The notes below the pieces were generated by a model. It ran no database searches, had not been told where the DNA came from, and saw nothing but the letters and a program-made list of their open reading frames with translations. The translations under genes were made by a program, and so were the position numbers. Below are positions 4,013-31,894 of a stretch of 64,000 nt of DNA, piece by piece; the first letter of the stretch is position 1, and each line of letters starts with the position of its first letter. The stretch is from positions 434,001 to 498,000 of the forward strand of contig SOPS01000004.1 of assembly GCA_005239175.1 (NCBI GenBank). The letters run 5' to 3'. The DNA is from a halophilic archaeon SHRA6. Lineage in GTDB: Archaea; Halobacteriota; Halobacteria; Halobacteriales; Haloferacaceae.

Positions 4013-4020
4013 GTATAATT
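4013..4020 (+). promoter_or_regulatory. TATA box of the ptsH-ptsI operon
   Basis: GTATAATT is centred about 27 bp before the ATG at 4043, the spacing of leaderless haloarchaeal transcripts. It supports choosing 4043 rather than the earlier in-frame GTG-like start at 4019 for HPr. Confidence 0.6.
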
Positions 4021-4042
4021 GTCTCCCCGTCGTCGACTGAGT

Positions 4043-4312
4043 ATGGAACGAGTCGTAACCGTAGTTCCCGAAGATGGCCTCCACGCACGGCCGGCCGCGA
4101 AGTTCGTTGAAACCGCCGGCACGTATGATGCGACAGTGACGGTCAAGCCGGCCGACGGCGATCGATCGGCCGTCGCAGCCGACAGTATGCTCGCGGTGAC
4201 CGGCCTGGGGGTGAAAGGCGGCGACGATGTCGTGTTGACAGCCGAGGGCAGTGACGCCGAGGCCGCACTCGACGCGCTGGAGGCCATCCTCTCGAAAGCA
4301 GTCACGGAGTGA
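4043..4312 (+). CDS. ptsH: PTS phosphocarrier protein HPr
   Basis: An 89-residue HPr that carries phosphate from Enzyme I to downstream PTS acceptors. The active-site region EDGLHARPAAKF places the phosphorylated histidine at residue 14. Ser48 lies in the segment that corresponds to the regulatory Ser46 of bacterial HPr (DSMLAV), although no HPr kinase is visible here. The start at 4043 is supported by the TATA box at 4013. ptsI follows after 6 bp. No EIIB/EIIC permease is encoded nearby; the only evident phosphate acceptor in the neighbourhood is DhaM of the dihydroxyacetone kinase, so this HPr most likely serves that kinase. Fructose PTS components may exist elsewhere in the genome. Confidence 0.95.
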   Translation: MERVVTVVPEDGLHARPAAKFVETAGTYDATVTVKPADGDRSAVAADSMLAVTGLGVKGGDDVVLTAEGSDAEAALDALEAILSKAVTE

Positions 4313-4318
4313 CCTGAG

Positions 4319-6037
4319 ATGTCACGAACGCTCAACGGTATCGGGGCGACGCCACGGCGCGGTGTCGGAGCTGCCGTGTGGGTCGATCGCACCGATGGTG
4401 CGGTTGACTCAGACGGCACACCCCGCGAGGAAAAAGCACCCGAATCGCCAGAAGCAGCCCTCGATCGCTTCGAGGCGGCGAGAGACGCCGGGGTCACAGA
4501 GTTGGAGGCCGAGAGTGAACGGACGGCCGAGCGGGTCGGCGAGTCCGAAGCAGAGGTGTTCGACGCGCACAAACAGTTCCTGTTGGATCCGACGATCGAA
4601 GCAAGCGTCGAGGAAGCGATTGATACAGGCAAAAGCGCCGAGGCAGCGGTCAGGGCCGCATTCGCGGAGCCGATCGCGCAGTTCGAGGAGATGGACGGGA
4701 TGATGGCCGAGCGCGCCGATGACCTCAGAGATGTTCGTGATCGACTGCTTCGGCTCCTTTCGGGCGCTACTCGGGCGGATCTCTCGACGCTGCCGTCTGG
4801 GACGGTCGTACTCGCCGATCGGCTCACCCCAAGCGACACGGTCCAACTCGACCCAGAAGTGATTGCTGGCGTTGTTACCGCGAGAGGAGGGCGGACCTCC
4901 CACGCAGCAATCATCGCCCGATCGCTCGGGATCCCCGCTGTTGTCGGTGTCGGCGAGGCGCTGTTCGAGATTGACGACGGTGTGACCCTTGCGGTCGACG
5001 GCACAGCAGGGACAGTCCTGGTCGACCCCGACGATGAGGCGATCGAGGCCTACAGTGAGAACACAGCGGCCGCCGCAATCGACGACGCGGTTGAAACCGC
5101 GGACGGAACGCCGATCGAGGTGGCCGCAAACCTCGGATCATCAGCGGCGGCCGCCGCGGCGATCGACGCCGGCGCAGATGGTGTTGGGTTGTTTCGAACC
5201 GAGTTCCTCTTTCTCGATCGTGAAGAGCCCCCAAGCGAGGACGAACAGTATGAGGCGTACCACGAGGTCTGTGCAGCATTCGAAGACAGGTGTGCGAGCA
5301 GCGGGGGGCACGTCATTGTCAGAACCGCAGACATCGGCGGCGACAAGCCGATCGACTACCTCGATCTGGATTCGGTCGAAAACGGCTTCCTCGGCGCTCG
5401 GGGGATTCGACTCTCACTCGAAGAACACGCTGGGCTCTTCAAAACGCAGATCCGTGCCCTGTGTCGGGTCGCTGCCGAAGCCGTCGGCGAGCACCTTGCA
5501 GTTATGTTTCCGCTCGTCTCGACTGTCGAGGAGCTGGACGCGGCGATCGATCTAGTGGATGCGGCCGTTGCAGAGCTGAACGCTGAGGGCATCGACGCAG
5601 CGGCTCCGGAACTGGGGGTGATGATCGAAACGCCCGCCTCGGTCATGCTCGCAGACGCGTTCGCCGATCGGGTCGACTTCCTCAGCATCGGCACGAATGA
5701 TCTCACACAGTACGTGCTGGCCGCCCAGCGCGACCTCGATCGGATGGATAGCTATCACGATCCGCTTGCTCCGGCGGTGTTACGGGCGATCGATCAAACG
5801 GTACAGGCGTCTGGGGACGCGTGGGTCGGCATGTGCGGTGAGATGGCTGGCGATCCAGCGCTCACGGCGCTTCTGGTCGGACTTGGTATTGACGAACTGA
5901 GTATGAGTGCGGTGACGATTCCGGATGTCAAACGAGCCGTTCGAGACATCGATCGGACGGAAGCCGAAGCGCTCGCCGCTGACGTGCTCGCATGTGAGAC
6001 GCGTGGCGACGTGCGATCGGCGATAGGTCTTGAGTGA
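4319..6037 (+). CDS. ptsI: PTS Enzyme I (phosphoenolpyruvate-protein phosphotransferase)
   Basis: A 572-residue Enzyme I that takes phosphate from phosphoenolpyruvate and passes it to HPr. Domains in order: N-terminal HPr-binding helical part (to about residue 145), swivelling phosphohistidine domain with GGRTSHAAIIARSLG and active His195, then the PEP-binding barrel with GLFRTEFLFLDR, the GIRLSLE segment, MIETPASVMLAD, SIGTNDLTQYVLA and the C-terminal MCGEMAGDP motif bearing the catalytic Cys. Length and all key motifs are normal. It lies 6 bp after ptsH in the same operon. Presence of EI and HPr beside dhaKLM marks a complete PEP-driven phosphorelay, a mixture known from some haloarchaea and rare among archaea in general. 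Confidence 0.97.
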   Translation: MSRTLNGIGATPRRGVGAAVWVDRTDGAVDSDGTPREEKAPESPEAALDRFEAARDAGVTELEAESERTAERVGESEAEVFDAHKQFLLDPTIEASVEEAIDTGKSAEAAVRAAFAEPIAQFEEMDGMMAERADDLRDVRDRLLRLLSGATRADLSTLPSGTVVLADRLTPSDTVQLDPEVIAGVVTARGGRTSHAAIIARSLGIPAVVGVGEALFEIDDGVTLAVDGTAGTVLVDPDDEAIEAYSENTAAAAIDDAVETADGTPIEVAANLGSSAAAAAAIDAGADGVGLFRTEFLFLDREEPPSEDEQYEAYHEVCAAFEDRCASSGGHVIVRTADIGGDKPIDYLDLDSVENGFLGARGIRLSLEEHAGLFKTQIRALCRVAAEAVGEHLAVMFPLVSTVEELDAAIDLVDAAVAELNAEGIDAAAPELGVMIETPASVMLADAFADRVDFLSIGTNDLTQYVLAAQRDLDRMDSYHDPLAPAVLRAIDQTVQASGDAWVGMCGEMAGDPALTALLVGLGIDELSMSAVTIPDVKRAVRDIDRTEAEALAADVLACETRGDVRSAIGLE

Positions 6038-6097
6038 TAGTGATTAACGTAGATAGCCAGAGATTGTGAAGGGCACAGTTGAGTTACTTTTGACTAG

Positions 6098-6766
6098 TCA
6101 GTTCAGAAGACTAAGCGAACCGTAGCGTTCCTCGTTTTGAATGTGGGTACAGAATTGGGCACAGAGTCGACAGCAGTCTTCGACATCTGTAAACGTCCGA
6201 ACGCTCGCATCCCAGCGTGTGTTAACAGCACCGAGCATTGCACTTCGAACCGATGGTTCAGTCGCAACCATTACTCGTCGTGTGTCTTCAGGCGGAGTCG
6301 CGTCGGCCGCCGATCCATGCATTCCAGCTGTTGACAAGAGATCCTCGAGGACACTTCCGATTTCAATTCCGACACCGAGATTGTCGCCGACCTGTGGCGC
6401 AATAAAAATTGTTGCGTTACTCGCCTGTGCAAAGGCAATACTTTGGGTGGCTGCATCAATCTCTTCAAGCGGAATCCCGACGTCAATTGCCAGGAAGGCG
6501 TTGAATCCACGCTCACGGAGACAGTCTCGCGTCTCTTGGAGAAGGCGGAGGACTTCGTCCTCAGCGTACTCGCCGCTGGTTTCGTCCCACGTCGCAAACG
6601 ATGGCGTATCGGTTTCGACGTTGACATCCGCTGGGAGCAATGTGTCGACGTCGAATGTTCGGTATGGTCCCATCAGGTAGACGAGAAACTGTTCCCGACG
6701 GACTGGCGCGAGAGCGTCTGAATTATCGGCTTGGTGAGGGAGGTTATCGATAATTCGTTGCCGCAT
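6098..6766 (-). CDS. Haloarchaeal protein of unknown function, Rossmann-like (DUF7509-like)
   Basis: A 222-residue soluble protein. The segment QFLVYLMGPYRTFD near residue 27 resembles the first strand and loop of nucleoside 2-deoxyribosyltransferase or TIR-like folds (YLAGP-type), followed by an ETRDCLRERGFNAFLAID strand-helix and an acidic patch at IPLEEIDAA. The segment FAQASNATIFIAPQ and the GVGIEIGSVLEDLL helix fit the same layout. A cysteine cluster (CCRLCAQFC) lies near the C-terminus. I believe it belongs to a haloarchaeal domain family of unknown function (DUF7509), but cannot verify that. It is transcribed divergently from an ArsR-like regulator and has its own TATA box at 6792-6800, giving a leaderless start at 6766. 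Enzymatic activity on nucleotides is speculative. Confidence 0.7.
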   Translation of the reverse strand: MRQRIIDNLPHQADNSDALAPVRREQFLVYLMGPYRTFDVDTLLPADVNVETDTPSFATWDETSGEYAEDEVLRLLQETRDCLRERGFNAFLAIDVGIPLEEIDAATQSIAFAQASNATIFIAPQVGDNLGVGIEIGSVLEDLLSTAGMHGSAADATPPEDTRRVMVATEPSVRSAMLGAVNTRWDASVRTFTDVEDCCRLCAQFCTHIQNEERYGSLSLLN

Positions 6767-6791
6767 TCGACACAGTTGTTCGGAGCGACAG

Positions 6792-6800
6792 TATATAAAT
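6792..6800 (-). promoter_or_regulatory. TATA element between two divergent genes
   Basis: TATATAAAT lies about 30 bp before the minus-strand start at 6766. Being nearly symmetric, it could also position transcription of the plus-strand regulator that begins at 6845 or 6878, so both genes may share it. Confidence 0.5.
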
Positions 6801-6877
6801 ATCGGCTTTTTCAGGAATATTCTAGTTGAGAATGACTAAGTAGAGTGCACCCCAATAATGGAGCAGAGAGTTCCCAG

Positions 6878-7270
6878 ATGTCCGAAGCCGATCGCCATCA
6901 ACCAGATGACGTGCGCCAGCCGGAGCCGCCGCTGCCCGAAGAGAGCGGGCTAACGCTTGAAGAGTACCTCTCGATGCAACAGGCGATCGGTCACCCGACT
7001 CGATTTCGAATTCTGCGTACGCTTGTCGCCAACGATGAACTGAGCGCTGCTAAGCTCAAGGCCGCAGTGGATGTCGAATCTTCCAACTTCCACTATCATC
7101 TCGACGAACTGGTTAGTGTCGGACTCGTCGATAAGCGCCAGCGGCGGACCGCTGACAGCCAGGGTTTCTATACGTACTATCGACCGACAGGCATGGGTCG
7201 CGGTATCCTCGAACACGGCGTCGAGGAGCTCATGCGTCGGGAACGTGAGTTTGATAAGACATACGCGTGA
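6878..7270 (+). CDS. ArsR-type winged-helix regulator
   Basis: A 130-residue regulator with an acidic, proline-rich N-terminal tail and a winged helix: AIGHPTRFRILRTL (helix 1), NDELSAAKLKAAVDVESSNFHYHL (helix-turn-helix) and LVDKRQRRTADSQGFYTYYR (wing). The pattern is the haloarchaeal ArsR-like type in which recognition helices contain NFHYHLDEL. No metal-binding cysteines are seen. An in-frame GTG at 6845 would add 11 residues; the ATG at 6878 is preferred, but the TATA box at 6792 is closer to 6845, so the start is uncertain. It is divergent from the unknown protein at 6098-6766 and ends 17 bp from convergent dhaM. It may control either neighbour. Confidence 0.8.
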   Translation: MSEADRHQPDDVRQPEPPLPEESGLTLEEYLSMQQAIGHPTRFRILRTLVANDELSAAKLKAAVDVESSNFHYHLDELVSVGLVDKRQRRTADSQGFYTYYRPTGMGRGILEHGVEELMRREREFDKTYA

Positions 7271-7286
7271 GGTTGTTTCAGGACAG

Positions 7287-7667
7287 TCAGTTCACTTTGT
7301 GATAGTCCCGCGCATCTTCGGCTTTCTCGACGACGGAATCGATTGTCGCCGAAGGGTTGGTTGCTTCGACCGCTGCGTTGAGCGCGCCTTCAAGCACTGG
7401 AGCGTCCGCGATAACCGCGTCAGTGTCGCCCATTTCGATCGCCAATTCGGCGTTCATCACCGCGCTGCCAAGATCAACAAGCACGACCACGCCATCGCCG
7501 TCATCGACCGATTTGATTGCGTCCTTGATTGCCGTCACGTCGGTTCCGATCTCGCCGTCATCCCCGCCCGCGGGTTCGATCGGGGCGTCGCCACCCATCT
7601 GGGCGGCGATCTCACAGATCCCTTCGGCAGCCTTCTGGCTGTGTGAGACCACAACGAGTCCAATCAT
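7287..7667 (-). CDS. dhaM: PTS-dependent dihydroxyacetone kinase, phosphotransferase subunit DhaM
   Basis: A 126-residue EIIA-mannose-type domain that accepts phosphate from HPr and re-phosphorylates ADP bound to DhaL. The start GLVVVSHS places the phosphorylated His at residue 9, and VVVLVDLGSAVMNAELA is the second family signature. It contains only the EIIA domain, without the HPr and EI domains fused in E. coli DhaM, so it depends on the separate HPr and Enzyme I at 4.0-6.0 kb. Its ATG overlaps the end of dhaL by 4 bp, showing translational coupling. Confidence 0.95.
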   Translation of the reverse strand: MIGLVVVSHSQKAAEGICEIAAQMGGDAPIEPAGGDDGEIGTDVTAIKDAIKSVDDGDGVVVLVDLGSAVMNAELAIEMGDTDAVIADAPVLEGALNAAVEATNPSATIDSVVEKAEDARDYHKVN

Positions 7668-8383
7668 TCCTCGCCTCCGTCAACCTCGTCGGGATCAACG
7701 TCAGGCTCTGTCGGTGCGGCGGCGTCGACGTCCGTCTCGCCTTCGAGGTACTGCTCGGCGGTCGCGAGGAGTTCCTCCATAATGAAGAGCGTCGATGTTG
7801 CGCCGGGATCCTGGTGGCCGACCGATCGCCATCCCAGAAACGACGCGCGGCCCTTTTCGGCGCGCAGCGGTACGGTAAACGCGACTCCAGCCTCCGCGGC
7901 TTCGACTGCCTTCGCGAGCGCGGTCAGCGGCGGGAGGTCGTCGACCTCGATCGACTTCTTGTAGGTGTGGACCGCGGGGGTCAGCGCGTCGACCATCGTC
8001 TTCGCGCCCACGCGCGCGTCGCCGCGGTCGAGTACCTTCTCGAGATACGCTTCCCCAAAGGCGATCGACGTCTCAGCGGTGAGTCCGTCGTCGAGTTCCT
8101 GGCTCGCACTCATGATCGAGCCGCCGTACAGCGGCCCTGAGGCGCCACCGACTTTCGAGATGAGCGTGACGCCGATCGTTTTGACTATTTCGTCGACGTC
8201 GTCTTCGCTATTTTCGACCTCATCGGCGGCCGCACGGAACCCTCGAGAGAGGTTTGAGCCGTGATCGGCATCCCCGATCGCAGAATCGAGTTCGGTGAGA
8301 TAGGATCGTTCTTCCTCGAGGCGATCGGCAACGCGGTCGATCGCGGTTAACACAGCTTCGCGCTGCGTGTCGGCGTCTGCCAT
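7664..8383 (-). CDS. dhaL: Dihydroxyacetone kinase ADP-binding subunit DhaL
   Basis: A 239-residue subunit that holds ADP as a permanent cofactor and transfers phosphate from DhaM to dihydroxyacetone on DhaK. The Mg-binding signature DSAIGDADHGSNL gives Asp33, Asp38 and Asp40, and GGASGPLYGGSIMSAS and the DPGATSTLFIMEELL end match the family. It has an acidic C-terminal tail of about 20 residues rich in Asp/Glu. It overlaps dhaM by 4 bp but is separated from dhaK upstream by a 280-bp repeat-filled gap. Either the transcript runs through those repeats or dhaLM has its own promoter. Confidence 0.95.
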   Translation of the reverse strand: MADADTQREAVLTAIDRVADRLEEERSYLTELDSAIGDADHGSNLSRGFRAAADEVENSEDDVDEIVKTIGVTLISKVGGASGPLYGGSIMSASQELDDGLTAETSIAFGEAYLEKVLDRGDARVGAKTMVDALTPAVHTYKKSIEVDDLPPLTALAKAVEAAEAGVAFTVPLRAEKGRASFLGWRSVGHQDPGATSTLFIMEELLATAEQYLEGETDVDAAAPTEPDVDPDEVDGGEE

Positions 8384-8409
8384 ATCTGTTGGCTCGGCTG
8401 TTGGGGGTA

Positions 8410-8460
8410 AATCGTTTGCGCCCGGTAATCGTTTGCGCCTGGTAATCGTTTGCGCCCGGT
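8410..8460. repeat. Three 17-bp tandem repeats upstream of dhaL
   Basis: AATCGTTTGCGCCCGGT occurs three times in a row with period 17 (one copy with a single change), about 27 bp upstream of the dhaL start on the minus strand. This is within the region where a dhaL promoter would lie. Confidence 0.85.
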
Positions 8461-8510
8461 TGAACGCACACGAATGCGGCCAGTCGGAGCTAGCAATCAG
8501 GTTCGTAGAC

Positions 8511-8705
8511 CCAATCGCCAGCGGTTACAGAATCGATCGCCAGTAGTTACAGAATCGATCATTCACGTCTGGAAATCCGATCGCCTACGGCTACAGAACC
8601 GATCGTTCACGTCTGGAAATCCGATCGCTTGCGGTTACAGACCCGATCGTTCAAGACTGCAAATCCGATCGCCTACGGCTACAGAACCGATCGTTCACGT
8701 CTGTA
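8511..8705. repeat. 44-bp (2 x 22) tandem repeat array between dhaK and dhaL
   Basis: About four copies of a 44-bp unit, itself made of two similar 22-bp halves each opening with CGATCG (halves resemble CGATCGCCTACGGCTACAGA and CGATCGTTCACGTCTGGAAA). Unit starts are near 8533, 8577, 8621 and 8665, with a half unit before them. The last copy runs into the 3' end of dhaK and supplies its final codons and stop, so the array appears to have grown from or into the gene end. Confidence 0.85.
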
Positions 8706-9690
8706 ACGCGGGGGTATCAGCCGGCGCGGAGAGAAGCTCTTTGAGTTCTTCGTCGACTGCACAGACAGTGATCGAACAGCCCATCATATCCAGCGACGTC
8801 ATGTAATCGCCAACCCAGCTGTCCCAGGTTTCGAGGCCGTGCTCGTCCATAAGCTCTTGCAGCTTGCGGTTGACGACAAATAGCTCCATGAGCGGGGTGC
8901 CGCCCATCCCGTTGACGATCGTCATCACCTCCTGGCCTTCATCGAGAGCCAGATCCTCGAGAACGTTCTGGGTCAGTTCTTCGGTGATCTCGTCGGCGCT
9001 CATAATATCCACCCGTTCGGTTCCCGGCTCGCCGTGGATTCCGATCCCAAGTTCGATCTCGTCCTCACCGAGGTCGAAGGTGGGCTCACCTTTATCGGGA
9101 GTGACACACGAGGTGAGCGCGGTTCCCATCGTCCCAACGTTGTCGATCACCTTCTCGGCGACGGCTTTGACCTCGCTGAGATCTCCGCCTGCAGCCGCCT
9201 TCGCGCCAGCGGCCTTGTGGACGAGGATCGTTCCACAGACTCCACGGCGCCCGGAGGTGTACAGCGAATCCTCGACGGCCACGTCGTCGTTGACCACGAC
9301 CTGTTCGACCTCGATCCCCTCCATATCGGCCATCTCGGCGGCCGTCTCGAAGTTCATCACGTCGCCCTCGTAGTTTTTGACGATGTTGAGTACACCCTCA
9401 CCGGCGTCACAGGCTTGGATCATCTCGCTGAGTTGATCGGCTGTCGGCGAGGTGAACACCTGCCCGGCGGCCGCGCCGTCCAACATCCCATCGCCAATGT
9501 AGCCGGCGTGCGTCGGCTCGTGTCCACTGCCACCCCCAGAGACAAGCCCGACCTTCCCGTCGACTGGTGCGTCCGCCCGGACGAGTACTTCAGTGCCGTC
9601 AAGCCGCCGGAGTCGATCGGGATACGCCGCGAGCATCCCCTCGAGCATCTCGTCGACTACGTTTTCCGGATCGTTGATGAGTTTCTTCAT
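8695..9690 (-). CDS. dhaK: Dihydroxyacetone kinase substrate-binding subunit DhaK
   Basis: A 331-residue subunit that covalently binds dihydroxyacetone. The segment GIGIHGEPGTERVD holds His219, corresponding to the hemiaminal-forming His of bacterial DhaK, and SGGGSGHEPTHAG near residue 51 holds His57 of the substrate pocket. DVMNFETAAEMA and GRRGVCGTILVHK are further family blocks. Length is slightly short of 356 but complete. The C-terminus is encoded by a copy of the downstream repeat, which makes the last residues (ALQT) unlike other DhaK proteins. It is divergent from the HAD phosphatase at 9770. Confidence 0.96.
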   Translation of the reverse strand: MKKLINDPENVVDEMLEGMLAAYPDRLRRLDGTEVLVRADAPVDGKVGLVSGGGSGHEPTHAGYIGDGMLDGAAAGQVFTSPTADQLSEMIQACDAGEGVLNIVKNYEGDVMNFETAAEMADMEGIEVEQVVVNDDVAVEDSLYTSGRRGVCGTILVHKAAGAKAAAGGDLSEVKAVAEKVIDNVGTMGTALTSCVTPDKGEPTFDLGEDEIELGIGIHGEPGTERVDIMSADEITEELTQNVLEDLALDEGQEVMTIVNGMGGTPLMELFVVNRKLQELMDEHGLETWDSWVGDYMTSLDMMGCSITVCAVDEELKELLSAPADTPALQT

Positions 9691-12086: not shown

Positions 12087-12242
12087 ATGGACACAAACTT
12101 CAGTGAGGTCGATCCGTACTCCCCAGCAGAGGGGTACTACGAATGTATTGAGTGTGGTCACCGCGAACACCGTACAGATTCGCCTGGGCGGTGTCCGAAC
12201 TGTGACGGTCACGTGCAAAACATCGCGGTCCCGCGCGAGTAA
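12087..12242 (+). CDS. Rubrerythrin-like small zinc-ribbon protein
   Basis: A 51-residue acidic protein with two knuckles, YECIECGHR and GRCPNCDGHV, forming a rubredoxin/rubrerythrin-type zinc ribbon (CxxC-x14-CxxC). It ends at TAA 12242, 6 bp before the convergent stop of the DUF368 gene. Proteins of this type (rubrerythrin-like domain, often annotated DUF7129) are common in haloarchaea; no role is established. It is too short for many gene finders, but the composition, stop and motif make it convincing. An unusually AT-rich stretch (about 11,975-12,050) precedes it and may hold its promoter. Confidence 0.8.
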   Translation: MDTNFSEVDPYSPAEGYYECIECGHREHRTDSPGRCPNCDGHVQNIAVPRE

Positions 12243-12248
12243 CCAGTT

Positions 12249-13193
12249 CTATACCTCGATCCCCGCGACCCGATCGAGTGCAAGCACCACAAGTGCCCCA
12301 AGTATTCCGAATACAGCAAACAGTCCAACAGCCGAGAGTGTCCACGCCTCCCCAGCCGCGAGGAGTCGTTCGTCAACCTGTTCGATCGGCGCTCGCAGCG
12401 CACCGACAATCAGGCTCACGAGAAACGCAACAGTCGCCGCACGGTAGCGCTCTAAAGCGTACCGGACGGCATACGCAATCGTGAAGACGCCGACGATCGC
12501 TCCAAGGATGAACGTGATAACCGGCGGAGCCGCTCCAACAAGTGCCTGCGGGTTGCCCGTCTTGAGGGTCTCGAGTATCCCGTCGACAAACGCTGACAGC
12601 GAGTTCGACATATACGCGTACTGACCAAGCAGCAACAACAGCAGCGATCCGGAGATCCCGGGGAGAATCATCGCGCTCACCGCAATCGCCCCTGAGACAA
12701 ACACAACCGCCGCCGATGGGGCAATCGCATTCGCCGTGACCCCGGACGCCACGAATGCGAGTACGAATCCGGCGATCGCCGCAGCGATCCGGCCCCGCGT
12801 GTCCAGTTCGACATCCTGATACAGGACGATCGCACTCGCGGCGATCAATCCAAAAAAGAATCCGAATGTTGCCACCGGTGCAACCGCAATCAGGGTTGAA
12901 ACGAGACTAAGCACGGCGACGATCGCGGTTGCGATCCCTGCCCCGAGCGTGAGCAGGAACGCGAGGTCAAGTTCGACCGCAGCTGCTTTCGCGCTCGATC
13001 GACCCGACGGACGCACACCGCCGAGCACTCGGAGAATCCGTCCGGGAGAGACCGCAGTGATCGCGGCGATGAGTCGTTCGTAGATGCCAGTGATGAGTGC
13101 GATCGTTCCGCCGGAGACGCCAGGGACAGCGTCGGCTGTACCCATACAGAGCCCGCGGAGATAGATTCCGAGGAGTTCGCGGGCGTCAATCAT
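12249..13193 (-). CDS. DUF368 membrane protein, PopT-like polyprenyl-phosphate transporter
   Basis: A 314-residue polytopic membrane protein with the DUF368 hallmark GTADAVPGVSGGTIALITG near residue 18 and its internal echo LPGISGSLLLLLLGQY, consistent with the inverted-repeat topology of the family. Bacterial DUF368 proteins (PopT) were recently identified as undecaprenyl-phosphate translocases that return the lipid carrier to the cytoplasmic face. Here the gene begins 3 bp after the stop of aglB, whose reaction releases dolichol pyrophosphate/phosphate on the outer face. That strongly suggests it recycles dolichol phosphate for N-glycosylation. The substrate is inference from family and context. 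Confidence 0.9.
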   Translation of the reverse strand: MIDARELLGIYLRGLCMGTADAVPGVSGGTIALITGIYERLIAAITAVSPGRILRVLGGVRPSGRSSAKAAAVELDLAFLLTLGAGIATAIVAVLSLVSTLIAVAPVATFGFFFGLIAASAIVLYQDVELDTRGRIAAAIAGFVLAFVASGVTANAIAPSAAVVFVSGAIAVSAMILPGISGSLLLLLLGQYAYMSNSLSAFVDGILETLKTGNPQALVGAAPPVITFILGAIVGVFTIAYAVRYALERYRAATVAFLVSLIVGALRAPIEQVDERLLAAGEAWTLSAVGLFAVFGILGALVVLALDRVAGIEV

Positions 13194-13196
13194 CGA

Positions 13197-16100
13197 TTAG
13201 GCGATCGCCTGGATTTCAGCGACTGCGCTGAGAGACTCGCGGTCGGAGCCGATTGGTTGGTTCTCAGGGTCGATCGATTCGTTTGCCGAGTCGTCGCTAT
13301 TTGTCTCAACTTCAGGCGTTTCGAGTTCAACAGTCACCGCCGAGTCGTCTTCGCCGACAACTTGGGCTTCTTCAACGGCAGCTTCTCCGACAAATTGGCC
13401 GGCGACGGGATTCTCAGAGGTGTTTGCGTCCTCGTCGATCGCGGTGAAGACATAGTCGTCTTCGGCGGTAACGCTCACGTTCGTGTAGCCGTTCTCGGGA
13501 CCGAACTCGTCGTAGCCGGTCGTCGAGTACGGCAGCGTCATCTCGAAGTTCCCATTCTCGTCGGCGGTCGCGTACTGGGTGTACGTGAACGTGGAATTCG
13601 TCGTCTGATCGCGCATCTGTACCTGTGCGGTGACCTCACTTTCCGCAGGCGCACCGCTTCCCTCAACGGTCGCGCCGGGGACCCGCTCAAACGTCTTGAC
13701 CCACTGTGGACTGGTTCGGGCGAGGTACTGCCCAGAGACGTTAGCCTGCTGCATCAACTGCACTTGCTGTTGGAAGTCCGAGTTGCTGAAGCTCGCCGGG
13801 CTCTCTGCGGATTTGACTAGTCGGTAGTGCTCTAAGGCTTCGACGCGTTCGGTCGGATTCGGACCAATCCCGCCCACCTCTGCGCCGGGATTTTCGTCTG
13901 CGTAGGCTTGAGCCTCTTCGAGGCTATCGAATTCCTGAACTCCCCCTTCGACATCGATCGCCTCGATCGTCACCTGGCCGCCCGCCTGCGTCTCGACGTT
14001 CTGCTGTTGGGTCTCGGTGACGATCGGCGCTGGATCGACCGCACTGCCGTGGAACTCGTAGAGTCGGACCATCTGGCTCTCGTAGTAACGCTGTTCGCGC
14101 AACGAGATCGGCTGGCCGAACTGCTCGCCCTGCTGTGGGTAGACCGATTGGATGAAGTCGCCCTGAGAGATGTCCTCCTCATCGTACCAGACGACTGGAG
14201 CGCTGAATTTCGAAGCCGGCGAAACCATCTGCCAGTCAACCATGACGTAGCGCGTTTCGCCGGATTCGCCCATCTTCTCTTCGAGGGCGCTCTCAGCGCG
14301 ATCCTCACTCGGTGCAAGGAGGTAGTTTGCAGCATCGGTTGCGCCCTGCTGGAACGGGTTCGCGTTCGGAATTCGCTCGCCCTGGGTGGTTATCCAGTGG
14401 CCGTAGTCCCACCAGGATTGGACGCCGTACGCACCGTCTGGGTAGTCGTGATCGCCCTCAGGGATCTCGTAAGTCCCGTAGTACTCCATGCGATTGTCGT
14501 GACCTTCGAGTTCGCCGGGGGCGGGCGTCTCCTCTTCGAGGAAGTCCATGCTATCCTCCCACGCGACGACCTCGCCGGGTTGGTTCGCCGACTCTGCGCC
14601 ACGGTCCCACGCGGTCGACGGGACCGCAAAGACGAGCGGCGCCGTGATGAGCAAGAATGCGGTGACGACCGCCATTACCTGCCAGCCTTCGATGCCGTCG
14701 ATGACCTCGCGCGGCGATCCGCGGAGGTCGAGGTAGCCGAGCACCTCCGCGATGAAGATCGCATTCAGGATCCCGACGACGATCGCCAGATAGTAGTTGA
14801 ACCGTGTCTGGGTGAACGCTGTGGCGGTGATGAAACCCGCCCACGTGAGGAGATAGAATGTGGCGGCGTCGTACTGGACGCGCAGCGCCGCGCCGATTAA
14901 TAGTGCGAGTGCGATCGCGAGTCCAAGTAATTGCCAGCTGATCCCGATCGTCTCGAAGGCGCCCGAGAAGGACGGGAACGCAGCGAGGACGAGGCCGATG
15001 AGGGCGACGCCCCCGGCGAGGTAGATGGTGTCGCTGGTGTCGTCACTTGTGTACAGCGGGCGACCGATAAGGTACAGTGCGGCAGCAACCGCGGTGATGA
15101 ACGCCAGTCCGTACTCGCTGAAAATGATCTGGAATGGACTGGCTCTCGGGTTGCTCGTGAGGAACGCTTGCGCCTCGCCGATCGTCTGAGTTGTGTCAGA
15201 GGCGCTGAACGCGATGATGTTCAGGACGTTGCCCTCGATCGTCCGGTAGAGGCTCGGAATCGCGAATCGGACGACGACAACAGAGGCCACGATCAGCCCG
15301 AAGACAGTCCCCACGTAGGCGGTCTCTGTCTGGTCTCTGGACTCCCACTCGCGGGCGAGGAACGCGAGGAAAACACAGCCGGCGGCAACGCCGATCGGGA
15401 GCAGCACCTGTAGGAGTGAGTAGCTCGTCGCGCCGCCGATCGAGAACTCGTTGAGCGGGACGAGCATCATGAGGCCGGTGACGGTCAGTGAGACCGCGCC
15501 GACGAACGCGATCGGCTCGGGGCTGTCACCGTGGTAGACATCTGTGGTGATCTTCAGCGCGAAGAAGATTCCAGTGAATCCGACCAGAAGGATGCCCGGT
15601 GGCCATGCCCACATGTACAATCCTGCTGCGACGCCCGCAAGAGCACTGTAGCCAACCGGGCGTTTGAGCGCCTCGACGTCGCGATCGATCACGAGCTCCC
15701 AGACGGGCTTTTCACGCTCAGCGACAGAGAGGGCAACAATAAACGCGAGGACCGCGATCGTCTGGAAGAACACCTCGAAGGCGTGGTGGTCATAAAAGCC
15801 TGCGAGGCTGTAGTTGAGGAAGGTACCGGGCAGGAGGGCGATCACGCTCACGCCGACAAGCGCGGGGAATTTGCCGGTGAATTGTCGGGCGAGCACGTAC
15901 GCTGGGATAATGGCGAGTGTTGCCATGATCGGCGCGGCGATCACCATCACGATCGCCGCCTGCTGGCTCGTAGGATCTCCGAGTCCCAGTGCGAGGATTG
16001 CGCCACCAGTTATTTGATCGACAAGCGTCCCAAACTGTTCGGGATTGTGTCCGGAGGGGTAGTTCGTCCACGGATCGAACGGCATCGTGAACGGGAAGTT

Positions 16101-16310
16101 TTCGACTACGTAGGAGGTCTCTCGGTAGTGATACCACGGATCGTTGCCGCCTAATAGCGGTTCGCCGTCTCTTATGAAGTTCCCGTAACTCTGTATGCGA
16201 ACCACGAGCATCAACGTCATTAATCCGACGAGGACGGGGATCTGATACCACCGTTCGATGATATCCAGGGCGGATCCCCCCAACCCGTCGCGATCGCTTC
16301 GCGTACTCAT
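13197..16310 (-). CDS. aglB: Oligosaccharyltransferase AglB (STT3 family)
   Basis: A 1037-residue membrane enzyme that transfers the dolichol-linked glycan to Asn of N-x-S/T sequons on S-layer and other proteins at the outer face of the membrane. An N-terminal part with about 13 membrane spans (to about residue 560) is followed by a large extracellular domain. GNDPWYHYRE near residue 60 carries the first metal-binding motif, and the catalytic WWDYG is at residues 633-637 (VQSWWDYGHWITTQ). The C-terminal 250 residues are Asp/Glu-rich and contain beta-sandwich-like segments. It heads an operon with the DUF368 gene. The glycan island with AglG- and flippase-like genes lies 2-13 kb away. Confidence 0.97.
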   Translation of the reverse strand: MSTRSDRDGLGGSALDIIERWYQIPVLVGLMTLMLVVRIQSYGNFIRDGEPLLGGNDPWYHYRETSYVVENFPFTMPFDPWTNYPSGHNPEQFGTLVDQITGGAILALGLGDPTSQQAAIVMVIAAPIMATLAIIPAYVLARQFTGKFPALVGVSVIALLPGTFLNYSLAGFYDHHAFEVFFQTIAVLAFIVALSVAEREKPVWELVIDRDVEALKRPVGYSALAGVAAGLYMWAWPPGILLVGFTGIFFALKITTDVYHGDSPEPIAFVGAVSLTVTGLMMLVPLNEFSIGGATSYSLLQVLLPIGVAAGCVFLAFLAREWESRDQTETAYVGTVFGLIVASVVVVRFAIPSLYRTIEGNVLNIIAFSASDTTQTIGEAQAFLTSNPRASPFQIIFSEYGLAFITAVAAALYLIGRPLYTSDDTSDTIYLAGGVALIGLVLAAFPSFSGAFETIGISWQLLGLAIALALLIGAALRVQYDAATFYLLTWAGFITATAFTQTRFNYYLAIVVGILNAIFIAEVLGYLDLRGSPREVIDGIEGWQVMAVVTAFLLITAPLVFAVPSTAWDRGAESANQPGEVVAWEDSMDFLEEETPAPGELEGHDNRMEYYGTYEIPEGDHDYPDGAYGVQSWWDYGHWITTQGERIPNANPFQQGATDAANYLLAPSEDRAESALEEKMGESGETRYVMVDWQMVSPASKFSAPVVWYDEEDISQGDFIQSVYPQQGEQFGQPISLREQRYYESQMVRLYEFHGSAVDPAPIVTETQQQNVETQAGGQVTIEAIDVEGGVQEFDSLEEAQAYADENPGAEVGGIGPNPTERVEALEHYRLVKSAESPASFSNSDFQQQVQLMQQANVSGQYLARTSPQWVKTFERVPGATVEGSGAPAESEVTAQVQMRDQTTNSTFTYTQYATADENGNFEMTLPYSTTGYDEFGPENGYTNVSVTAEDDYVFTAIDEDANTSENPVAGQFVGEAAVEEAQVVGEDDSAVTVELETPEVETNSDDSANESIDPENQPIGSDRESLSAVAEIQAIA

Positions 16311-16490
16311 TGGATTGAACGAGTAGCAAATCGGAAATAAGCCTTGTTATATTGTTATCTGCGCGGCGATCGGTGGCAGGGTATTTCGAGTGCGTTCGCT
16401 GGGTGTGTCATACGTAATAAAATAGAACCGCTCGAACTTACAAACTGCTCAAACTTGCGCGACTATCGATGCAGCACAATGCGTGGGATG

Positions 16491-18406: not shown

Positions 18407-18496
18407 TGTGTCACCCACTTCGACTCAGAAATGACCACACAGCCGGCGCATTGATGAAACACAATCCTTATTCGCCGTTTGCGTCAACGCTCGAGC

Positions 18497-19432
18497 ATGA
18501 AAGTTTCCGTCGTCGTCTGCACGTATACGATGGACCGATATGACGTGTTCACGGAGGCAGTCGAAAGCGTGCTCGCACAGACCTACGACCCGATCGAGGT
18601 CATTCTTGTGATCGACGGTAATACCGAGGTGTACGAGCGGGTGGTTGACGACTTCGGCGATCTGGAGAACGTCGTGGTTCACAACAATGAAGAGAATCGT
18701 GGGATCTCCTACAGCCGGACAAGGGGTGCCGAGTTGGCCTCCGGCGAGATCGTCGCGTTCATCGACGATGATGGGCTGGCCGAGCCGGACTGGATCGTGA
18801 AACACGTTGAGACCTACGAAGAGACGAACGCGATTGCAGTGGGTGGATACGTCGCACCCAACTGGGTCGGTGAGAAACCGGACTTCTTCCCGGAAGAGTT
18901 CTACTGGCTGGTTGGCTGTACCGAGAAAGGATTCGCCGAGCACGGCGAAGAGATTCGTAACGGATACGGATCGAACGTCTCCTACAAGCGTGACCTCTTC
19001 CTTGATGTCGGCGGCTATGATGTTAATACTGGCCGAAAGGGTGATCGGCACATCCAGGCGCACGAAGCACCCGTCGGGATCCGAATTCGGGAGGAATATG
19101 GACAGGGCGTGGTATATGTCGAGGACGCAGTCGTCCATCATAAGTTGTTCGAGTACCGTGGCGATTTTCGATGGCTCGTGTTTCGATCTTTCTGGCAGGG
19201 TTTTTCGAAGCGGATTATGGGAATATTGCTTCCAGAATCAAAAGGTGATGAAAGTGAGTATCTACAAAATCTTGTATTCCAATTCATTCCCGGTCGAATT
19301 AAACAAATAATTCGTAGACCTTCTCCTAGTAAAATCAAACAACTTATATCAATTTTTGTGTTTACTATTTCAGTTGCTACCGGGTATTTATACGGATACA
19401 TTACAGTTGATAGTGAAAAGTATGAAAACTGA
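18497..19432 (+). CDS. aglG: Family 2 glycosyltransferase, AglG-like (dolichyl-phosphate-glucose glucuronosyltransferase)
   Basis: A 311-residue GT-A transferase. It starts MKVSVVVCTYTMDRYDVF as haloarchaeal AglG does, with the nucleotide-binding IDGN segment, the DxD-like FIDDDGLAEPDW near residue 90 and the acceptor-side GYGSNVSYKR and GGYDVNTGRKGDR. AglG of Haloferax adds the second sugar (a glucuronic acid) to dolichol phosphate. The ATG at 18497 is chosen over 18479. From about 19,200 the base composition drops sharply to AT-rich and the C-terminal 80 residues become Lys/Ile/Ser-rich (RIKQIIRRPSPSKIKQLI), so the gene looks mosaic. It overlaps the next gene by 11 bp. Confidence 0.85.
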   Translation: MKVSVVVCTYTMDRYDVFTEAVESVLAQTYDPIEVILVIDGNTEVYERVVDDFGDLENVVVHNNEENRGISYSRTRGAELASGEIVAFIDDDGLAEPDWIVKHVETYEETNAIAVGGYVAPNWVGEKPDFFPEEFYWLVGCTEKGFAEHGEEIRNGYGSNVSYKRDLFLDVGGYDVNTGRKGDRHIQAHEAPVGIRIREEYGQGVVYVEDAVVHHKLFEYRGDFRWLVFRSFWQGFSKRIMGILLPESKGDESEYLQNLVFQFIPGRIKQIIRRPSPSKIKQLISIFVFTISVATGYLYGYITVDSEKYEN

Positions 19433-27909: not shown

Positions 27910-29373
27910 ATGCGCATCGGCCAAACATCGTTCGTTTACTTTCTTTCGAAGATTGTCGTTTCCGTTGTCGGTTTGCTTGCAACGCTCTACTTCGCCCGAA
28001 AACTCGGCGCGGGTGTGCTCGGCGTCTATTTTCTGATATTGGCGCTCGTCTCTTGGCTCAAGTTAGCTGGCGAGATGGGTATCGGTGGTGCGCTTTCAAA
28101 ACGGATCAGCGAAGGCACCGAACCAAACGCCTACATCGTGACTGGCGCGATTGTGGTCGGAACGCTAACCACCGCGATGTTGGTCGGGCTCGCCGTCTTC
28201 AGTCCTTGGATCGTCTCCTATGTCGGCCATCCGGACGCTCCCATCTTTCTTGCCGCATTGGTCGTCGTCAATCTCCTTTACGGATACACCGCAGCCGTAT
28301 TGAAAGGCCAACGATTAGTCCATCTCGTTGCGGGGATTTCGACGACGCAAACGGTGAGTAGGGTTACCTTTCAGATCGCTGCGGTTTTTATTGGCTACCA
28401 GCTCCTGGGACTGATCGTAGGCCTGATTATGGGGTCGATATTGGCTTCGGTTCTCGGGCTCGTAGTAGTGATCCGCTCACTCGACGATCGACCATCTCCA
28501 CGGCAGTGGAGCTATCGACACGTCAAAAGTCTCGTTTCCTACGCGAAGTACTCCTGGCTTGGAGGGGTACGTGGGCGCTCGTTTAGTTGGGTCGATGTGC
28601 TCGTCCTCGGGCTGTTCGTGCCGTCGAACCTCATCGGCGTCTACTCAATCGCTTGGAACATCGCGTCATTTTTAAATATTTTCGGGGCGGCGATTCGAAA
28701 TTCAGTATTCCCCGAAATCAGCAAGATCGCTGCCGATGATGATACCGAGCGTGTAAGTGGCCTGATCACCGACGCACTCTCGTTTGGCGGATTAATCTTG
28801 ATACCTGGACTCATCGGGGGCGTACTCATCGGCGATCGCCTGCTTCGTATTTACGGTTCTGAGTTCGTGCAAGGGACCACCGTGCTAGGGTTGCTCATTC
28901 TCTCCGTCCTCATTTACGACTATCAGATGCAGTTCACCAACGCCCTCAACGCAATCGACCGGCCGGATCTCTCTTTTCGCGTAAACGCGGTTTTTATCGG
29001 CGGTAACGCTGTATTGAACGTTGGCCTAATCTATTTGTACGGGTGGATCGGGGCGGCGATTGCGACAGTCTGTTCGGCGATTATCGGTCTGATCGGTGCC
29101 GTCTACTACCTTCGCTGTGAGATCGACTTTCGCATTCCGGTTCATGAGATCACGCTACAGTGGATCGCCGCAATCCTGATGGGAGGTGTGGTGTATACAG
29201 CCCTTCAAATCGCCCAGACGTATCAGCTGTTTACGTACAACGTCGTCGAGGTACTCACGATCGCGGGCTTAGGCGCAGTCGTCTACTTCACCGTCCTCCT
29301 CGCAATTTCTTCGCAGTTCCGGACCGTTGTCCGAAACAACTCGCCGGTAGAGATCCCCGGCCTGGCACCGTGA
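27910..29373 (+). CDS. Wzx-type oligosaccharide flippase (AglR-like)
   Basis: A 487-residue integral membrane protein with about 12-14 hydrophobic segments of the MOP/polysaccharide-transport superfamily. It starts TSFVYFLSKIVVSVVGLLAT as in haloarchaeal AglR and bacterial Wzx, with VFPEISKIA near the middle and FTNALNAIDRPDLSFRVNAV as conserved repeats. It would move the lipid-linked glycan from the cytoplasmic to the outer face, where AglB acts. Its DNA is again GC-richer than that of the neu genes, so the island ends near 27.9 kb. A TATA-like ATAATACCC stretch lies about 28 bp before the ATG. Confidence 0.88.
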   Translation: MRIGQTSFVYFLSKIVVSVVGLLATLYFARKLGAGVLGVYFLILALVSWLKLAGEMGIGGALSKRISEGTEPNAYIVTGAIVVGTLTTAMLVGLAVFSPWIVSYVGHPDAPIFLAALVVVNLLYGYTAAVLKGQRLVHLVAGISTTQTVSRVTFQIAAVFIGYQLLGLIVGLIMGSILASVLGLVVVIRSLDDRPSPRQWSYRHVKSLVSYAKYSWLGGVRGRSFSWVDVLVLGLFVPSNLIGVYSIAWNIASFLNIFGAAIRNSVFPEISKIAADDDTERVSGLITDALSFGGLILIPGLIGGVLIGDRLLRIYGSEFVQGTTVLGLLILSVLIYDYQMQFTNALNAIDRPDLSFRVNAVFIGGNAVLNVGLIYLYGWIGAAIATVCSAIIGLIGAVYYLRCEIDFRIPVHEITLQWIAAILMGGVVYTALQIAQTYQLFTYNVVEVLTIAGLGAVVYFTVLLAISSQFRTVVRNNSPVEIPGLAP

Positions 29374-30356: not shown

Positions 30357-31709
30357 TCATGAGTCCAAAAGCGATCGTCGTGCTATCGAGCGAACATCAG
30401 ACACCGAAATATCAGCAAACGCATCATCCTCAACGAGCGTCTCAATAACGGCGTCAACCGGTTCGGTAAACGTGAACATGAGATGGACACCAGTTTTGAA
30501 TCCACCACTCGTCCGTGTGCTGTTGAGCACGCCGTATGTCCCTGCCTTGTTGAGGTGGCTATTGACGGTCTCTTGGGTATATACGTCGCGATCAGTGCTG
30601 CGACAAATTGCTCGATACACTGAATAAACCGCTGGGCTCGGTGCGTTGCCGTCGTTGATATCCGCAACGACAGCCGCAGCGTACAGCGAGAGCTTCTTTT
30701 GCAACGACATTCCCCCAACGATCTCCAAGACGCGGTTTTTCACGACTGAATCGTTGGCTGCGTGGACGTGCTGTTCTGTCACAACGGTTTCGCCGTTCCT
30801 GTTCGCAATTTCTCCTGCGTCCCGCAAGAGGTCGATCGCCCGTCGGGCGTCACCCTCGTTTTTTGCCCCATATGCAGCAACCAACTCGAGAACGCCATCA
30901 TCCAATGCGCCCTCTCTAAAGGCGTCACGCCGTCGACTGAGAATCTCGATGAGTTCGTTGGCATCGTAGTCAGAAAAATGGATTCCGGTTGGATTGTACG
31001 AGCTATCGGTTCGGCTATCCAGGTTCTCACGGAACTTCGGATGGTTCGTAATGACAACTGTTGAAACGAGTGTGTCCACATGCTGTTCGGCCATGACCCG
31101 GCTCAAACTGTAGAGAAGCCTCGAATACGCCGGTTCATCTTCACCAGCTCGACCGGTAAGCGTATCAATTTCATCGAGAAGAAACACGAGTGCATCGAAA
31201 TGCCGATCAACTATGTCATAGAGGCGGACGTATTTTGCATCGGTTGAGACGCCTTTCTGTGGAATATCCCAGGCGACACCGGCTTTTTTCGCAGTTTGAT
31301 GTCCGAGTTTCCAGACGGCACGATCCAGCGTGTGCGATTCCATCGTCTTGAAATTGACCGCAACAAAATCAAACCGAATCTCGTTTCGCTCAGCACGCTC
31401 TTTTACTTTCTCGGCAACTGATTTCACCGTGAGCGTTTTTCCAGTTCCACTCGGTCCATAGAGCAAAAGATCCGGTGGGCGTTCACCCTCAAGTGTATCG
31501 CGGAACGCGCGTGCCTCAGCTGCTAACTGTTCGTCGCGGCCGTATATCCGATTGTGGTCAACGATCGTATTTGAATCAACGAGTTGCTTGTTTTCAAAAA
31601 CCGACGTTCGCTCACCGTCCAGAATACTATCGACGATCGATGGCTCACGAGAGGTTCCTGAGTCAGTGGTGGCTTTGCCACCCTGCGAATCTGACGAATC
31701 GTAATCCAT
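30357..31709 (-). CDS. orc1: Orc1/Cdc6 replication initiator
   Basis: A 450-residue AAA+ initiator that binds origin repeats and loads MCM. Domains: Walker A GPSGTGKT at residues 85-92, Walker B ALVFLLDEIDTL, sensor-1 STVVITNH, sensor-2 region EGDARRAIDLLRDAGEIANR and a C-terminal winged helix (from about residue 340, GGMSLQKKLSLYAAAVVAD). The ATG at 31709 (MDYDSSDSQ) is chosen; a longer ORF to 31877 runs into origin repeats and has no family resemblance. Transcription comes from a TATA-like GGTATAC about 30 bp upstream. Inverted origin repeats begin 190 bp upstream, so this is an initiator with its own origin. Its number among the strain's Orc paralogues is unknown. Confidence 0.95.
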   Translation of the reverse strand: MDYDSSDSQGGKATTDSGTSREPSIVDSILDGERTSVFENKQLVDSNTIVDHNRIYGRDEQLAAEARAFRDTLEGERPPDLLLYGPSGTGKTLTVKSVAEKVKERAERNEIRFDFVAVNFKTMESHTLDRAVWKLGHQTAKKAGVAWDIPQKGVSTDAKYVRLYDIVDRHFDALVFLLDEIDTLTGRAGEDEPAYSRLLYSLSRVMAEQHVDTLVSTVVITNHPKFRENLDSRTDSSYNPTGIHFSDYDANELIEILSRRRDAFREGALDDGVLELVAAYGAKNEGDARRAIDLLRDAGEIANRNGETVVTEQHVHAANDSVVKNRVLEIVGGMSLQKKLSLYAAAVVADINDGNAPSPAVYSVYRAICRSTDRDVYTQETVNSHLNKAGTYGVLNSTRTSGGFKTGVHLMFTFTEPVDAVIETLVEDDAFADISVSDVRSIARRSLLDS

Positions 31710-31894
31710 TGGCGGTACTGGGTACGTGTCCCGTATACCTTTTTCGAAATGAAGGAACCAAGATCTAAATGAGTCGGGTGTTGTCGATATGAAGACACTA
31801 CAATCTAAATGAAACCAGGGATTTTCGATCGCAAGCTGGTCGGGACAATCAGCAGACTCAAAGAGATCAGACTTCATTCAGTCGAGACGCAGAG

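Follow-up and report, generated by a model that had tools for sequence, protein, structure and literature searches.

The window analysed here is a 64,000-nt stretch of the genome of the haloarchaeon SHRA6 (contig SOPS01000004.1), on the minus strand of which two genes follow each other closely: aglB, encoding the archaeal oligosaccharyltransferase (13197-16310, 1037 aa, assigned by profiles and motif), and a gene for a polytopic membrane protein of the DUF368 family (PF04018; VCA0040-like, PopT-like; 12249-13193, 314 aa), which is a candidate dolichol-phosphate transporter. The TAA stop codon of aglB and the ATG start codon of the DUF368 gene are separated only by TCG (13194-13196, minus strand), thus the 3-bp distance given in the first-pass annotation agreed with both the ORF coordinates and the junction sequence. 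Since such a junction is too short to contain a promoter of its own, the two genes are presumably co-transcribed. The region upstream of aglB (16311-16490, minus strand) contains the A/T-rich element CTTATTT, which ends 24 bases ahead of the start codon and could be the TATA box of a leaderless bicistronic transcript. At the other side, a small convergent ORF (12087-12242, plus strand) encoding a zinc-ribbon-like protein of 51 aa, with paired CxxC cysteines in its translation, would mark the limit of the operon 3′ of the DUF368 gene. Both aglB and DUF368 gave one profile match each in the 3.36-Mb genome.

For AglB, the Pfam profiles PF02516, PF22627, and PF18079 (STT3 N-terminal, AglB_core, and AglB_L1 domains) all matched above their cut-offs, TIGR04154 was hit with 881.8 bits (cut-off 450), and the translation contains the oligosaccharyltransferase motif WWDYG in the context GVQSWWDYGHW. 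The DUF368 protein matched PF04018 with 205.6 bits (cut-off 26, E = 1.2e-60), the alignment covering residues 17-270 of the protein and positions 1-229 of the 246 of the profile. It carries two PGxSG motifs, and PG-SG was invariant at both sites in an alignment of 36 sequences, all of them haloarchaeal members, from which we read the repeat as probably family-defining. The NCBIfam models of the PopT/VCA0040 equivalogs, NF052563 and NF052564, gave 89.1 and 175.9 bits, respectively, below the cut-off of 400, so by these models the protein is classed as a family relative rather than as an equivalog. The undecaprenyl-phosphate translocases VCA0040 of V. cholerae and PopT of S. aureus (SAOUHSC_00846) share with it the Pfam family and the predicted polytopic helical build, but the window protein differs from them in its presumed substrate (dolichol phosphate), in its operon with an oligosaccharyltransferase, and in remaining under the equivalog cut-offs. 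The AlphaFold2 model was all-helical (mean pLDDT 91.3), and the PDB yielded neither a solved relative by sequence nor a significant fold match, thus the structure is silent on the substrate.

The 3-bp spacing had been taken in the first-pass annotation as a sign of one function. Spacing in a single genome proves little, but the neighbourhood survey that it proposed, in which a lack of conserved linkage would speak against the idea, revealed linkage throughout the class. Of 392 Halobacteria genomes, 387 had a match to PF04018 and 388 one to AglB_L1. In three fragmented assemblies of the Halorubrum group (G186, G205, and G306) AglB_L1 and DUF368 were both undetected, probably because the region is missing. 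Among 106 evenly drawn genomes with near-complete position lists, DUF368 lay directly downstream of aglB on the same strand in 70, the two genes were within 2.2-2.7 kb in three, and they were apart in 32 (approximately 30% without linkage), while DUF368 was undetected in the remaining one (G021), which does have AglB. The 73 linked cases span 31 of 45 genera and eight of nine families, that is, the same-strand adjacency is conserved well beyond the genus. Chance adjacency, for which we estimated an expectation of about one in several thousand per genome for two random genes, was ruled out by the same order and strand in 70 of 106 genomes. In 80 named loci, aglB was upstream on the same strand in 65, including seven of the eight Haloferax loci, and Halorubrum, Natrinema, Halococcus, and Haladaptatus are also represented among the linked ones. 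Detailed inspection of 43 linked loci, with start codons chosen mechanically, showed a spacing of ≤10 bp in 26 and overlaps in 12. These 3-bp or overlapping junctions point to a single aglB-DUF368 transcript. AglB-DUF368 fusion proteins were absent from the loci examined, and the long frame seen in one of them (L012) proved to be a shifted reading of aglB.

The conserved synteny stops right after DUF368, where the largest family of following genes occurred in only 5 of 43 loci. A frozen gene order would have preserved this next gene as well, thus its variability indicates that the order of aglB and DUF368 is not merely frozen. On the other side, the upstream neighbour of aglB belonged to one family, the AglG-type glycosyltransferases, in 20 of 40 loci, and 15 of these 20 matched the protein encoded at 18479-19432 (plus strand, divergent from aglB) of the window, itself an aglG-type glycosyltransferase (glucosyl-dolichyl phosphate glucuronosyltransferase, NF041394, 519.6 bits vs. 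440). Unlike in the window, aglB and DUF368 are separated in most Haloferax loci examined, and in some relatives, by an aglM-type gene for a UDP-glucose dehydrogenase, which in most cases lies on the opposite strand. In Halobellus there is no aglB nearby, yet DUF368 still adjoins the aglM-type gene. In H. volcanii, the published agl cluster extends from aglJ (HVO_1517) to aglM (HVO_1531) (PMC3871713), and the position of DUF368 just past aglM in related Haloferax may explain why the gene was passed over. The H. volcanii DUF368 gene, HVO_RS12060, is predicted to lie beside an aglM-type gene, as in most Haloferax loci.

In a tree of 81 DUF368 proteins, 32 of the 37 unlinked copies formed a single clade, B (98/99 support), while the remaining five sit among linked copies as later detachments. 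With copies from outside the class as the root, and SH-aLRT as the only support measure, clade B was nested within the linked copies, so linkage is most likely the original condition in the class, and the unlinked paralogue (found in Haloarcula and many Natrialbaceae) most likely derived from linked copies, which it largely replaced. By our count, 74 genomes carry only the linked clade (A), 27 only clade B, four both, and one neither; Haloarcula belongs to the carriers of clade B, and Haladaptatus litoreus has one linked and one clade B copy. This near-exclusive pattern, in counts uncorrected for the relatedness of the genomes, suggests that a clade B protein can do the work of a clade A protein. 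Clade B loci include L069, L094, and L095, and in the two genomes scanned for clade B neighbours, these had no connection with glycosylation. The Haloferax DUF368 proteins also fell in the linked clade, and HVO_RS12060 has been tested heterologously (Sit et al., 2022). Outside the class, 166 genomes of the phylum were sampled, and DUF368 occurred in 28 of them; AglB was not found within approximately 6 kb of DUF368 at 20 such loci with the haloarchaeal AglB profile, which a divergent AglB of <600 aa could escape, and the six largest ORFs beside these loci belonged to other families. L203 and L217, from metagenome bins labelled Actinomycetota, and L195, labelled Nanohaloarchaea, encode DUF368 proteins approximately 48-49% identical to the Haloferax-type query, which grouped among the haloarchaeal sequences in the tree, reflecting either binning error or transfer.

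The lipid on which archaea carry their N-glycans is generally dolichol monophosphate, although dolichol pyrophosphate has also been proposed as a carrier in Halobacterium (PMC4476749). With the monophosphate as carrier, AglB would release free dolichol phosphate, and no phosphatase would be necessary. In bacteria, DUF368 proteins bring undecaprenyl phosphate back (PMC9876793; PMC12826051), and when DedA and DUF368 proteins are lost there, Und-P stays on the outer leaflet (PMC12826051). Sit et al. (2022, PMC9876793) showed that HVO_RS12060 of H. volcanii gives at least partial complementation of a V. cholerae strain mutated in its DUF368 gene. Considering these data along with the linkage, we propose, with a probability of roughly 0.7, that aglB and DUF368 form a two-gene N-glycosylation operon, in which the DUF368 protein recycles the dolichol phosphate that AglB sets free. 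At the outer face of the membrane, AglB would take the glycan off dolichol monophosphate and attach it to asparagine, leaving free dolichol phosphate there; the DUF368 protein would carry this lipid back to the cytoplasmic leaflet, where it would be reloaded by the first glycosyltransferases. Here dolichol phosphate as the substrate, the inward direction, the co-transcription, and the partnership with AglB are what we infer. The narrower version, according to which the aglB-linked clade is a dedicated recycler of dolichol phosphate for N-glycosylation, perhaps within an AglB complex, and thus provides the missing return step, is attractive but tentative, and we give it slightly less than an even chance. 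The first-pass annotation had named the gene a strong candidate for dolichol-phosphate recycling; with the conserved linkage this is still the most economical reading, and DUF368 appears to be the leading candidate for the return of the spent carrier lipid in haloarchaea, but the claim is tempered by the DedA proteins present in every genome of the sample and by the unlinked paralogue found in about a quarter of them.

The same two facts also speak for a broader role, in which DUF368 would be a general polyprenyl-phosphate recycler serving N-glycans, exopolysaccharide, and lipid-linked sugars, largely redundant with DedA and located beside aglB because AglB frees more carrier than any other enzyme. 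DedA proteins occurred in 106 of 106 genomes in 1-6 copies, which makes redundancy with DUF368 likely, and clade B replaces the linked copies in 27 of 105 DUF368-bearing genomes; conditional and overlapping roles of DUF368 and DedA were also described by Sit et al. (PMC9876793). The DedA/UptA undecaprenyl-phosphate flippases (PF09335) have the same proposed chemistry as DUF368, but they belong to a different Pfam family and show no consistent linkage to aglB, with only a handful of copies within approximately 20 kb of it by inspection, whereas the aglB-DUF368 junction is very persistent across the class and often overlapping. We therefore regard a general recycler as unlikely, although it deserves consideration. 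The idea that haloarchaeal DUF368 has some other task, such as handling another lipid phosphate or ion/pH homeostasis at high salt, and is merely co-expressed with aglB, could draw on the sodium and pH dependence and the enrichment in halophiles noted by Sit et al. (PMC9876793), and no solved structure or PDB sequence relative fixes the substrate. However, an archaeal protein complements the V. cholerae mutant at least in part, and the gene is coupled to precisely the enzyme expected to free its presumed substrate, which makes this highly improbable. Outward flipping of glycan-charged dolichol phosphate as the donor of AglB is the least probable reading: a position beside AglB suits supply as well as recycling, and for the H. 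volcanii tetrasaccharide the flippase has been described only in the passive (PMC3871713), but the known activity of the family concerns free polyprenyl phosphate, the window has a MOP/Wzx-type flippase gene of its own at 27910-29373, a weak MOP-type match lies near the Haloferax aglB, and AglR and Agl15 are already the proposed haloarchaeal flippases (PMC3871713). AglR and Agl15, proposed in H. volcanii for dolichol-phosphate-linked mannose and tetrasaccharide, respectively, share the lipid carrier and the pathway with DUF368 (PMC3871713), but they are described as flippases of another kind, for which outward movement of the charged carrier is proposed.

The class-wide operon with AglB points to a candidate gene for the recovery of the carrier lipid and makes this step testable in H. 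volcanii. Dolichol phosphate recycling matters for eukaryotic N-glycosylation as well. The first-pass annotation treated the assignment as new. What appears new is the class-wide coupling, as the aglB-DUF368 linkage went unmentioned in the open-access literature searched. A transport role for archaeal DUF368, on the other hand, had already been proposed, the transporter function of the haloarchaeal protein having been raised by Sit et al., who mentioned dolichol phosphate in their discussion with regard to DedA proteins in eukaryotes (PMC9876793).

Elsewhere, the window contains further genes of glycan synthesis. The segment 23731-29373 (plus strand) encodes enzymes for nonulosonic (sialic-acid-like) sugars, namely a NeuC-type UDP-GlcNAc 2-epimerase (347.5 bits vs. 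235.9), a cytidylyltransferase, a NeuB family protein, and a polysaccharide pyruvyl transferase, and ends with the Wzx/MOP-type flippase, suggesting that a surface glycan contains a nonulosonic acid. The G+C content drops to 35-47% between 18001 and 28000, compared with approximately 60% elsewhere, and this part, which coincides with the glycan gene cluster, looks like an acquired island adjoining aglB. An Orc1/Cdc6 replication initiator gene is located near the island (30357-31877, minus strand). Farther away, PTS enzyme I, a probable HPr, DhaK, DhaL, and a probable DhaM, encoded at 4019-9690, make up an archaeal dihydroxyacetone kinase system.
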